Shown here: positions 33,594 through 36,643 of the stretch, piece after piece
Numbering within the stretch: the stretch's first letter is position 1
Layout of the letters: every line of letters begins with the position of its first letter
Source: Candidatus Komeilibacteria bacterium S5_K13
GTDB taxonomy: Bacteria; Patescibacteriota; Patescibacteriia; UBA1558; S5-K13
DNA length: 46,812 nucleotides
NCBI GenBank assembly: GCA_019248485.1
Contig: JAEHGL010000004.1
Span: forward strand, 1 to 46,812
Direction: 5' to 3'
Made by a program: the position numbers and the translations under genes
The notes under the pieces: model-generated
What the model saw: the letters and a program-made list of their open reading frames with translations, nothing else
Told to the model about the DNA's origin: nothing
Database searches by the model: none

Positions 33594-33699
33594 AATTTAT
33601 AATCGGTTTAATTTTTGCCAAATAAAAAATATTAAGATTTTGGATAACAAAAAATACCTGTTTTAATAGGTATTTTAGCCCCAAAACATGCTGAGGCAC

Positions 33700-33930
33700 T
33701 GAGGTCTCTTGAACCTCTCAAAGGGTGCCCTTCGACTTCTCGTCCATTCGGCAATCTCAGGACTCGTCGCTCAGGACATTCGAAACGTGCTATTGGATTA
33801 AGAATGGTCGAAGACCATCTCTCGACTTCGCTCGAGACCTTTCGACGAGCTGAATAATATTACTAGATGGTCGTAGACCATGAGTGAGCCCAACCTCATC
33901 ATATAAAATAAAGGGCGAATCGAATGGTAC
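33700..33930. repeat. 231-bp direct repeat, copy 1
   Basis: It matches 34778-35008 over 231 bases with no difference I can see. Internally it has several short palindromes (GGTCTCTTGAACC; TCTCGACTTCGCTCGAGA; GATGGTCG...). The two copies are 1078 bases apart and enclose the 34092-34694 gene. The remaining gap 33931-34091 holds no recognisable gene. Confidence 0.95.
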
Positions 33931-34091: not shown

Positions 34092-34694
34092 TTATAGATC
34101 CTTGTTTAAAATTGGTAATTTTTTTAGATTTATTTTCTTAGAGTTAAAGTTTTTTTTCAACCAACTGCCACTAGTTTTAATAAATAGGGTGTTTTCTAAA
34201 ACTCCACAAAATCCCATTGACATAGAGCTACCCCAACCTCCATAAGAATCCAAGTTATATGAATATTCTGGGTAATTTCCTACGAAATCTTCAGTTAAGT
34301 ATATATTATAGAGTGGAGAAATTGGAGAAGCGCACTCCATTTGAGCAAGTGGATTATCTCTTTGGATAAAACAATATCTGAATTCTAAGTTAAATGGTTC
34401 AGAATTTGGTGTTTGCAATGGAGAGTATGGATTAACTATTCTAACATATTTAAAATATATGCTAAATGGGGTCCAACTTTCAGAAAGAGCATCACCAACA
34501 TAAAGGAAATCCCCGGGTCTTAGAATTGTTACTTCATTTCCATAATCTACCGGATTTAAATTGATACAACGTTGAAATAAGGGCTCTTGATATTCTAAGT
34601 TATCTGCTATTTTTGCGTTAATTGTTGTACAGACAAATAACATCAAAAAAATAGAAATAAAGACCCTTGTTATATTCTTATAAAGAATTGACAT
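34092..34694 (-). CDS. Small secreted protein of unknown function
   Basis: The 200-residue protein has a standard signal peptide (basic start, VFISIFLMLFV core, cleavage after INA at about residue 27). The mature part is beta-rich, with cysteines in QRCINL, FRYCFI, QMECAS and MGFCGV, possibly two disulphides. The C terminus is Lys/Asn-rich. It lies between two identical 231-bp direct repeats and has no neighbouring transposase. No family is recognised; cargo of a repeat-bounded unit is an inference. Confidence 0.7.
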   Translation of the reverse strand: MSILYKNITRVFISIFLMLFVCTTINAKIADNLEYQEPLFQRCINLNPVDYGNEVTILRPGDFLYVGDALSESWTPFSIYFKYVRIVNPYSPLQTPNSEPFNLEFRYCFIQRDNPLAQMECASPISPLYNIYLTEDFVGNYPEYSYNLDSYGGWGSSMSMGFCGVLENTLFIKTSGSWLKKNFNSKKINLKKLPILNKDL

Positions 34695-34777
34695 ATTTTT
34701 GTTAGATCAATAATGATTAATATTTTAATATTGTATCCCAACTCGAGCACTCAGTGTTTCTTAAAGAGGCCAAGCAT

Positions 34778-35008
34778 TGAGGTCTCTTGAACCTCTCAAA
34801 GGGTGCCCTTCGACTTCTCGTCCATTCGGCAATCTCAGGACTCGTCGCTCAGGACATTCGAAACGTGCTATTGGATTAAGAATGGTCGAAGACCATCTCT
34901 CGACTTCGCTCGAGACCTTTCGACGAGCTGAATAATATTACTAGATGGTCGTAGACCATGAGTGAGCCCAACCTCATCATATAAAATAAAGGGCGAATCG
35001 AATGGTAC
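34778..35008. repeat. 231-bp direct repeat, copy 2
   Basis: It matches 33700-33930 over its whole length. Its right end overlaps the CCA, the discriminator and last acceptor bases of tRNA-Lys(CTT), so one boundary of the duplicated segment falls at the 3' end of a tRNA. The copy-1 end has no recognisable tRNA. Confidence 0.95.
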
Positions 35009-35078
35009 GCTGTGCAGGATTCGAACCTGCGACCGTTTGCTTAAGAGGCAACTGCTCTACCAACTGAGCTAACAGCGC
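35003..35078 (-). tRNA. tRNA-Lys (anticodon CTT), CCA encoded
   Basis: The cloverleaf folds: acceptor GCGCTGT / ACAGCGT, D stem GCTC / GAGC, anticodon loop CTCTTAA with CTT, T arm GCAGG-TTCGAAT-CCTGC, discriminator A and encoded CCA. The anticodon stem GTTGC / GCAAA has a G-A mismatch at 27-43. It reads AAG (Lys). A 36-bp block with its 5' end and leader recurs at 35210-35245. Confidence 0.95.
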
Positions 35079-35342
35079 ATATTTGGTTGTTGATTTTCAA
35101 AACATTGTGTTTGGCAAAATCCCAACTGTCGTAGCCTAGCGAAGACCTTGAGCGACAGTCGAAAGGTCGGAGCGAAGCGTAGATCCCGCAGAATGAAATA
35201 ATTGCGGGAAGCTAACAGCGCATATTTGGTTGTTAATTTTCAAAATTTAGTTTTAATAATTTTAAAATAAGCTCCAGTCATCAGGCTATCAGCCGAAGGT
35301 TGAATAAATGACTGGTCCGCCTCTGGCGGAAACAGCGCATAT
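35067..35342. repeat. Broken copies of the tRNA-Lys 5' end with palindromic fillers
   Basis: A 36-bp block (AGCTAACAGCGCATAT onward) at 35067-35102 recurs at 35210-35245 with one difference. AACAGCGCATAT recurs again at 35331-35342. On the minus strand each is a tRNA-Lys leader plus the first tRNA bases. Between them are palindromes such as TCCCGCA / TGCGGGA (35184-35209), ACTGTCG / CGACAGT (35127-35162) and CCGCCTCTGGCGG near 35318-35330. The 35079-35404 gap holds nothing else. Confidence 0.8.
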
Positions 35343-35404: not shown

Positions 35405-35445
35405 TGGTGCACTCGGCAGGAATTGAACCCACAGTCCCCTGGTCC
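35405..35445 (-). tRNA. Split tRNA-Arg (TCG): 3' half
   Basis: On the minus strand this is GGA CCAGG, a variable loop, T arm GTGGG-TTCAATT-CCTGC, acceptor CGAGTGC, discriminator A and encoded CCA. No matching 5' half lies next to it. The acceptor CGAGTGC pairs over all 7 positions with GCATTCG at 36063-36069 (one T-G wobble), and CCAGG pairs with CCTGG of that distant half. Joined to 36034-36069 it makes a complete 77-nt tRNA with anticodon TCG. Confidence 0.75.
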
Positions 35446-35514
35446 GTCAGGTCATACGCGCGCCATGGTGGCATGCCGTGGACCTGACAGTCGAGTCGAA
35501 TGACTCGACGAAGC
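35439..35514 (-). repeat. 76-bp palindromic repeat inside tRNA-Arg sequence, copy A
   Basis: It is identical to 35963-36038 at 71 of 76 positions. On the minus strand it runs from GCTTCG through two hairpins (GTCGAGTC / GACTCGAC, and GTCAGGTC / GACCTGAC) to GGACCAG. Its ends are therefore the two sides of a tRNA-Arg anticodon arm. Confidence 0.9.
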
Positions 35515-35552
35515 TTAACTAAGCTAGGGCAAGTCTATTGCTAATGTGCGGA

Positions 35553-35629
35553 TGGCGCTCCCTGAAGGATTTGAACCCACAACCTCTTGGTCCGAAGCCA
35601 AGCACTCTATCCAGTTGAGCTAAGGGAGC
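35553..35629 (-). tRNA. tRNA-Arg (anticodon TCG), intact, CCA encoded
   Basis: The cloverleaf is complete: acceptor GCTCCCT / AGGGAGC, D stem GCTC/GAGT-like, anticodon stem CTTGG / CCAAG with loop CTTCGGA (anticodon TCG), T arm GTGGG-TTCAAAT-CCTTC, discriminator G and CCA. Flanking sequences extend the acceptor helix: leader GTGCGGATGG and trailer CCATCCGCAC pair perfectly. It lies inside the segment that splits another tRNA-Arg(TCG). Confidence 0.95.
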
Positions 35630-35659
35630 ACCATCCGCACATAAACATAATAATTATTA

Positions 35660-35923
35660 TCAAATAACCTTTTCTTTAATCAAAACATCTCTAATCTGTT
35701 GTCTTAACAATCTGCTTCCTTCTGTTGTTTTTAGAAATCTTTCTCTTCTCTGTGCATCACTCTTTAAACTATAAACCTCGTAATGAATCAATTTTAAAGG
35801 CCCATTATCTTTTGTAGATTTTACTAGTCCTTTTTTATGATCATTTAAACGAATTTTTAAATTTCCAGAAAACCCCTTATAAAGCTTTTTATTATTCATT
35901 AATAAAACATAAACATAATACAT
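35660..35923 (-). CDS. Single-domain GIY-YIG endonuclease-like protein (UPF0213/YhbQ type)
   Basis: The 87-residue protein is one GIY-YIG domain. The start MYYVYVLLMNNKKLYKGFSG is the GIY...YIG part in the variant common in this subfamily. NLKIRLNDHKKG carries the conserved Arg and His, and KLIHYEVYSLKSDAQRRERFLK holds the catalytic-region Glu and Tyr. Such stand-alone genes are frequent in small environmental genomes. Its position is odd: it lies between the two halves of a split tRNA-Arg, just upstream in transcription order of a spare tRNA-Arg. A homing role is possible but unproven. Confidence 0.9.
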   Translation of the reverse strand: MYYVYVLLMNNKKLYKGFSGNLKIRLNDHKKGLVKSTKDNGPLKLIHYEVYSLKSDAQRRERFLKTTEGSRLLRQQIRDVLIKEKVI

Positions 35924-35962
35924 ATTTTTATCACTTTTCTTTTTTTAAAATATATATAAACT

Positions 35963-36038
35963 CTGGTCCGTCAGGTCATTCGCACGCCATGGCGACATGC
36001 CGTGGACCTGACAGTCGAGTCGGATGACTCGACGAAGC
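35963..36038 (-). repeat. 76-bp palindromic repeat inside tRNA-Arg sequence, copy B
   Basis: Direct repeat of 35439-35514 (5 differences). It interrupts a tRNA-Arg anticodon loop: the 5' half of the tRNA ends at its edge. After the repeat comes GGACCAGAG and then AT-rich DNA without a T arm. Confidence 0.9.
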
Positions 36039-36069
36039 CAGGTGCTTTATCCAATTAAGCTACGAATGC
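36034..36069 (-). tRNA. Split tRNA-Arg (TCG): 5' half
   Basis: On the minus strand this is GCATTCG, TA, D arm GCTT-AATTGGATA-AAGC, A, anticodon-stem CCTGG and loop CTTC. The local sequence after the interruption gives CCAGA (one mismatch) and no T arm or acceptor. Its acceptor and anticodon strands match the half at 35405-35445 perfectly except for one wobble. The halves are 588 nt apart. Confidence 0.75.
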
Positions 36070-36079
36070 GTAATAAATT

Positions 36080-36643
36080 CTAATTATTTAATTCTTTTTC
36101 TATTATGCTTCGTACATCACCAACTGCTTTCTCTAATTTTCCTTGCACATTTATAACCTTATAATCACAAATATCTGCGACTTTCATTTCCTCATCAACC
36201 CTTCTTAATCTTCTTTCGACATCTTCTATCGTTGAACCATCTCTTCCCTCTATTCTTTTTCTTAAATTTTCTAAAGAATCTGGCATTATAAATATAGTAA
36301 CTAAATTATCTATAACTTTTGATAAATTCTTTACACCCTGAGTATCACATACAAAAAGTGGAATGCGTCCCGAATCAAAGATTCGTCTTACTTCTTTTTT
36401 CTCTGATCCATACAAATTTCCATAGACCTCTGCATTTTCAAAAAGCTCATTATTTCTAATCATATTTTCAAACCCAGCTTTATCATAAAAATAATAATCT
36501 TTTCTATTTTCTTCTCCTGGTCTAATACTGCGCGTTGTTGAGGTTATAACCTTCTCTATTTTTGGATTTTTATCTATAAGCTCGTAGGCAATTGTTGTCT
36601 TACCAACACCAGACAACCCTGAGATCAAAAAAACTTTATTCAT
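36080..36643 (-). CDS. gmk: Guanylate kinase
   Basis: GMK phosphorylates GMP to GDP in the cytosol. The 187-residue protein has the P-loop GLSGVGKTT (9-17) and the GMP-binding region STTRSIRPGEENRKDYYF. EVYGNLYGS contacts guanine. The lid RIEGRDGSTIEDVERRLRR follows. Length and motif order are normal. It lies 5 bases from the pseudouridine synthase gene on the same strand, so they form one unit. Confidence 0.95.
   Translation of the reverse strand: MNKVFLISGLSGVGKTTIAYELIDKNPKIEKVITSTTRSIRPGEENRKDYYFYDKAGFENMIRNNELFENAEVYGNLYGSEKKEVRRIFDSGRIPLFVCDTQGVKNLSKVIDNLVTIFIMPDSLENLRKRIEGRDGSTIEDVERRLRRVDEEMKVADICDYKVINVQGKLEKAVGDVRSIIEKELNN

Follow-up and report, generated by a model that had tools for sequence, protein, structure and literature searches.

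A tRNA-Arg gene broken around a GIY-YIG nuclease gene and a second tRNA-Arg in a CPR genome, and related loci across its class

A broken tRNA-Arg gene and its contents

The window, by which we mean the whole 46,812-nt stretch analysed (G000:C69), comes from a 1.06-Mb, 133-contig metagenome-assembled CPR (Patescibacteria) genome. Within it a tRNA-Arg(TCG) gene, called A here, is broken in its anticodon loop with a gap of 588 nt between the halves, and the gene order across the locus is rluD, gmk, 5′ relic of A, repeat, GIY-YIG gene, a second tRNA-Arg(TCG) called B, repeat, 3′ relic of A and tRNA-Lys(CTT) (Table 1). The GIY-YIG gene is the only ORF of note between the two halves, where neither an integrase gene nor an att core was found. 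The original prediction, made from the letters of the sequence, had described just such a split gene with no good local partner for either half, and the description held up: when the halves (36 + 41 nt) are joined, ARAGORN calls a 77-nt tRNA-Arg(tcg) in which every arm is present, while neither half gives a hit on its own with ARAGORN or Rfam. Pairing over 7 bp of acceptor stem and 5 bp of anticodon stem arose in 21 of 2,000,000 random pairs of window segments, or about 1 per 100,000. The two direct repeats, the GIY-YIG gene and the intact tRNA that had been placed between the halves are likewise there, all on the minus strand.

Table 1. Positions in the window of the features of the locus and its flanking anchors
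Feature	Position	Strand	Remarks
Remaining 5′ part of tRNA-Arg(TCG) A, the native gene: 5′ strand of the acceptor stem, D arm, and anticodon arm to CTTC	36034..36069	-	G003 and G002 have an intact homologue in synteny
Remaining 3′ part of tRNA-Arg(TCG) A, the native gene: 3′ strand of the anticodon arm, T arm, 3′ strand of the acceptor stem, and CCA	35405..35445	-	
Copy 1 of the direct repeat: double hairpin within the anticodon arm of A	35963..36038	-	insert proper 35970-36033
Direct repeat copy 2: same anticodon arm + double hairpin as copy 1	35439..35514	-	insert proper 35446-35509
Gene for an 87-aa, single-domain, UPF0213-like GIY-YIG endonuclease	35660..35923	-	Pfam PF01541, E=2.5e-13
Intact tRNA-Arg(TCG) B	35553..35629	-	ARAGORN and Rfam
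gmk (guanylate kinase), synteny anchor common to window, G003 and G002	36080..36643	-	
tRNA-Lys(CTT), synteny anchor on the far side of the locus from gmk	35003..35078	-	

The direct repeats are 76 nt long and 93% identical, with five mismatches, and in each the anticodon arm of A (GCTTC...GGACCAG) encloses a double hairpin of 64 nt. In copy 1 the insert reads GTCGAGTC-ATCC-GACTCGAC, T, GTCAGGTC-(23-nt palindrome)-GAATGACCTGAC, such that a 23-nt palindrome breaks the second hairpin; this palindrome is a dispersed one, found in the genome also on contigs G000:C42 and C43. Since this nested palindrome is common to both repeats, the repeat appears to have been duplicated or converted after the palindrome arrived. 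Two further features were considered and rejected. A 25-nt inverted repeat on either side of B lengthens its acceptor stem, a trait that is not special to the element, being found at 10 of 74 nuclease-adjacent tRNAs and 5 of 71 controls. A putative remnant of a second 5′ half of A ahead of repeat copy 2 (CCCTAGCTTAGTTAA) is a weak match that 100 of 2000 shuffles equalled.

Elsewhere in the window, stranded 5′ pieces of tRNA-Lys(CTT), of 12 nt (35210-35221) and 8 nt (35331-35338), lie on the minus strand upstream of the tRNA-Lys(CTT) gene, and a palindrome comes after each. The relic pattern is thus repeated at a second tRNA of the window, here with no nuclease gene. A 235-bp direct repeat, 100% identical (33696-33930 and 34774-35008, 1078 bp apart), encloses a 200-aa ORF (34092-34694, minus strand).

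A comparison with relatives, proposed with the original prediction as a way to find an unsplit gene at this site, turned one up in two genomes of the window's own family. In G003 the order is rluD, gmk, a hydrolase-like gene, an uninterrupted tRNA-Arg(TCG), a second hydrolase-like gene and tRNA-Lys(CTT), and in G002 an uninterrupted tRNA-Arg(TCG) directly follows gmk; the other genome of G003's genus, G001, was uninformative, with no match to an A-type tRNA or to gmk. The acceptor stems of the G003 and G002 tRNAs (GCACTCG/CGAGTGC or CGGGTGC) resemble that of A (GCATTCG/CGAGTGC) and not that of B (GCTCCCT/AGGGAGC), which is the stem of G007, from another family of the order. Both the uninterrupted A-like gene near gmk and this likeness of acceptor stems indicate that A is the native gene, since broken, and B the odd one out. 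B is 88% identical to a tRNA of G037, 82% to that of G003 and 74% to A, and its nearest matches fall outside the window's own family, which, in a comparison over 77 nt, makes B likely to be a diverged tRNA imported into this genome. It is the only intact Arg(TCG) among the tRNAs typed there, and the resident A would be dead and unexpressed, its function taken over by B. In this respect the window is unlike most of the loci described below, as its inner tRNA does not closely match the relics.

Recurrence across the class and the hairpins of the relics

We searched 381 genomes of the class for the GIY-YIG family with a profile (A1) of six proteins and found it in 250. A same-strand tRNA lies within 300 nt at 83 of the 110 best loci, an opposite-strand tRNA at none, and stranded fragments of the same tRNA occur upstream at 37 of these loci, downstream at 20 and on both sides at 9, covering ∼30 anticodons. 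Looking at order, an intact same-strand tRNA lies ≤200 nt downstream of the nuclease gene at 74 of 134 loci, and in 48 of these 74 a stranded upstream copy of the same tRNA was detected by long-insert alignment, above every shuffle; such copies were sought only beside an intact tRNA, and 35 of the 48 are at least 95% identical to it. That independent assemblies share the layout makes an artefact of assembly less likely.

The closest parallel to the window, L208 (the same locus as L171, Falkowbacteria), encodes a GIY-YIG protein 68% identical to that of the window and consists of a 5′ half of tRNA-Arg(TCG), a double hairpin in the anticodon loop, the GIY-YIG gene and an intact tRNA-Arg(TCG). 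On contig C13 of the window's own genome (L014), truncated copies of tRNA-Pro surround a GIY-YIG gene and an intact tRNA-Pro follows; in G033, truncated tRNA-Arg(TCG) copies with hairpins accompany a GIY-YIG gene and an intact tRNA-Arg, and the theme returns at tRNA-Lys in G009 and G063 and at tRNA-Arg(TCT) in G102. Window-like layouts with relics on both sides are found at L217 (Ser(gga), positions 1-69 and 69-88 of the tRNA), L206 (Ser(gct), 1-76 and 76-95) and L207. The two halves of A may not flank a single insertion: at other loci the 5′ relic and the 3′ relic overlap, and each can carry a hairpin-bearing arm, as expected of relics of tandem copies.

Several loci add observations of their own. 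In the window genome, tandem broken copies accompany a GIY-YIG gene at tRNA-Pro(TGG) (L014, G000:C13) and tRNA-Glu(TTC) (L023, G000:C57), and tandem broken tRNA-Lys(TTT) copies with no nuclease left lie at about 1600-1800 of G000:C78 (L010). At L195 (G031:C29, 1370-1840) the tRNA-Arg(TCG) relics on either side of a GIY-YIG gene bear hairpins, and the locus has no intact copy; G031, which is 88% complete, has no tRNA-Arg(TCG) among the matches listed, making this a possible case of a genome lacking an intact isoacceptor, though genome incompleteness may explain it. At L217, L206, L207, L211 and L224 a GC-rich structured stretch of 60-150 nt separates the intact tRNA from the 3′ relic, and in L207 and L211 this stretch starts with the 5′ strand of the tRNA's acceptor stem and includes a T arm, resembling a minihelix-like pseudo-tRNA.

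The stranded tRNA copies carry hairpins inserted in the D, anticodon or T loop. For inserts of at least 18 nt, 43 of 54 fall in tRNA hairpin loops where 18.5 are expected (p=1e-11). The insert nearest the nuclease is mostly a double hairpin of ∼40 nt (exactly 40 nt in 13 of 39), and those farther away are mostly single hairpins of 20–25 nt. At most loci the relic ends a few nucleotides from the 3′ end of the insert-bearing stem and the nuclease gene comes next; in the T-loop class, the insert comes after GTTCG. The double hairpin has the form GTC-ATNC-GAC / GTC-GRAT-GAC with freely covarying outer stems, and across 29 aligned examples TCAT.CGA and TCG.ATGA are constant, the outer stem is variable and 97.2% of cells are paired, against 18–43% in slid controls. 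Changes on both sides of a pair number 81 cells versus 20 in shuffles, with 12 of 16 pairs changed on both sides, a covariation that may stem from an origin as perfect inverted repeats rather than from selection.

A scan for the double motif identified 33 of the 381 genomes. The compact form is present at 21 of 30 loci examined from the scan, and a tRNA or a GIY-YIG gene of the family lies within ∼800 nt of 19 of these 21, versus none of the 9 others. A covariance model built from the 29 sequences, none of them from the window, matched the 46.8-kb window solely at the two repeats (36007-36035, E=8e-5; 35483-35511, E=6.6e-5); the G267 locus scores 69 bits, its sequence being among the model's 29.

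The nuclease and comparable systems

The GIY-YIG ORF of the window lies outside introns and inteins. Its closest solved structures are the UPF0213 proteins 1ZG2 and 1YWL, and it comprises the catalytic domain alone, with no obvious DNA-binding part; typical homing enzymes carry more than the bare catalytic domain. A PHROGs search returned nothing for the window protein and, for that of L208, a weak match to a homing GIY-YIG family at E=0.074. A phage vector for the element was considered and set aside, as IMG/VR gave one weak match only, at 36% identity. In the protein tree, the window protein falls inside a set of 44 rows with 99% support, 37 of which have a downstream tRNA; finer structure is unreliable in a tree from an alignment of just 82 columns. 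The 28 anticodon labels require 49 changes on this tree (shuffled mean 58) and the amino-acid labels 26, versus 42 when shuffled. Related nucleases thus sit at different tRNA isotypes in a way that reads as much hopping with some conservatism, and since isotype is non-random on the tree, part of the spread would be vertical or isotype-bound. Some distant members of the family (L249, L254, L262, L265, L293, L298, L301) lie away from tRNA genes; there the nuclease sits within short terminal inverted repeats, such as CCCGTAGAGAAATTTT...AAAATTCTTCTACGGG or CCCTGTTAAAT...ACAGGG, in the manner of a small transposon.

The nearest functional comparison is SegB of T-even phages, a GIY-YIG homing endonuclease encoded by a free-standing gene in tRNA gene regions; it cuts inside tRNA genes, has the reported motif RAWTSGAAC and drives tandem tRNA-segB duplications by recombination (PMC13096335; Brok-Volchanskaya 2008, cited there). 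The complement of that motif, GTTCSAWTY, looks like the T-loop consensus. The CPR element shares with SegB the GIY-YIG domain and a free-standing gene beside tRNA genes of many isotypes, but it lies on a bacterial chromosome rather than in a phage and encodes a minimal single-domain protein with no significant match to phage families. We know of no hairpin-loaded tRNA relics or double hairpins in SegB systems. Because the protein is nearer to UPF0213 and sequence kinship with SegB is unsupported (E=0.07 at best), we class it as working like SegB and not as a SegB.

Three other systems share single features with the locus. In tRNA-dependent lysogeny of mycobacteriophages, an essential tRNA gene of the host is broken by an element that itself provides a complete tRNA of that isotype (PMC10865867), as B here has the anticodon of A, but that element is a phage with a tyrosine integrase and a short att core, whereas this one spans <600 nt and has a nuclease gene and no integrase. 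GIY-YIG insertions in CPR rRNA genes occur in the same bacteria, are neither group I nor group II introns and mostly lie at the top or base of stem–loops; they differ in residing in rRNA rather than tRNA, and the main text of that paper is silent on tRNA, hairpins and palindromes. Archaeal split or intron-bearing tRNA genes are also in pieces with a break in the anticodon loop, but there the break lies one nucleotide 3′ of the anticodon, whereas A is broken inside it (CTTC/GGA), an intact copy is present and no bulge-helix-bulge is seen in the left-junction fold. Our search of openly available journal papers found no description of this GIY-YIG/tRNA family.

Possible origins of the locus

The layout, its recurrence, the preference of the hairpins for loops and the uninterrupted native site in relatives are observed directly, and given these we think it probable that a widespread CPR mobile element has one of its copies at this locus, a free-standing single-domain GIY-YIG nuclease that lives in tRNA genes and works in a SegB-like manner. 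The nuclease would cut within the anticodon loop or T loop of a tRNA gene, and recombinational repair from a copy with tRNA-derived flanks would leave the nuclease gene between a stranded, hairpin-loaded tRNA piece and a complete tRNA, by which the cell retains a working gene. Repeated rounds would produce tandem broken copies. For the window, the history would start from an uninterrupted A, as in G003 and G002; the nuclease and double hairpin would then enter the anticodon loop with an intact A kept downstream, as in L208, followed by entry of the palindrome into the hairpin and the arrival of B, and finally the downstream copy of A would be lost through spreading of the repeat into it. On such a stepwise history the two relics of A would come from two tandem copies; the alternative is a single insertion of repeat, nuclease, B and repeat.

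If a selfish SegB-like element is the right reading, tRNA genes in a large part of bacterial diversity would be targets of a tiny selfish nuclease, with essential tRNAs being broken and replaced, and this would account for two features of CPR genomes, the relics of tRNAs in tandem and the small GIY-YIG genes found next to tRNA genes. The element would be a cellular counterpart to phage SegB and to tRNA-dependent lysogeny, and its very small (∼85-aa) nuclease may read tRNA-loop or hairpin DNA.

Homing by itself is no explanation for the regular hairpins, for which a guard against re-cutting, a recombination site and a scar are candidate roles. A bolder proposal, which we put forward tentatively, is that these loci form a distinct class of CPR mobile element whose ends are double hairpins that are fixed in their loops and free in their stems, are recognised by their shape and are placed into tRNA loops by the minimal GIY-YIG nuclease. 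The hairpins would then be part of mobility (as site, re-cutting guard or repair scar), and resident tRNAs would be replaced by element-borne ones, so that tRNA genes would be repeatedly exchanged by selfish DNA.

It is also conceivable, though we regard it as unlikely, that the double hairpin is itself a recombination site and that a cassette of GIY-YIG gene and tRNA moves between double hairpins, by target-site-duplicating insertion or site-specific recombination, leaving direct repeats at both ends with the nuclease as passenger or resolvase. The near identity of the two window repeats and the palindrome nested in both would fit such a cassette, as would the conserved loops and variable stems of the hairpins, the double hairpins borne by some 3′ relics (L200, L221, L286) and those at tRNA genes with no GIY-YIG gene nearby. 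In most loci, however, the double hairpin is on one side only, and the element has no recombinase gene.

We give still less credence to passive decay, in which tRNA genes duplicate in tandem in the ordinary way and palindromes and a common small nuclease gene pile up at the neutral dead copies. Stranded copies with hairpins do occur with no GIY-YIG gene (L010, and also L310 and L325), and unrelated palindromes strike these copies too. However, the strand bias of 83 to 0, the fixed order of relic, nuclease and intact tRNA, the loop preference and the near-constant 40-nt double insert adjoining the nuclease are too regular for chance accumulation.

The original prediction had left a choice between an element inserted in the anticodon loop with a replacement tRNA and an RNA that is spliced or trans-assembled, and it is the former that is well supported, given the uninterrupted gene in synteny in relatives and a layout that recurs at many tRNA isotypes. 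It is very improbable that A is instead expressed as one transcript spanning the 588 nt, or as two, from which splicing or assembly makes a working tRNA-Arg: the halves do still pair throughout and join into a good tRNA, the D stem of A has paired changes relative to G003 (GCTT/AAGC versus GCTC/GAGC) and the hairpins, like rRNA intervening sequences, are placed in loops, but an intact gene with the same anticodon lies inside the split, Rfam scans gave only tRNA and rRNA matches with no group I or group II intron or other RNA, many analogous copies are truncated (lacking a 3′ or 5′ part) or hold several hairpins per tRNA, comparable loci elsewhere keep an intact copy beside hairpin-loaded relics, and the predicted minimum-free-energy fold of the left junction is a series of stacked hairpins.
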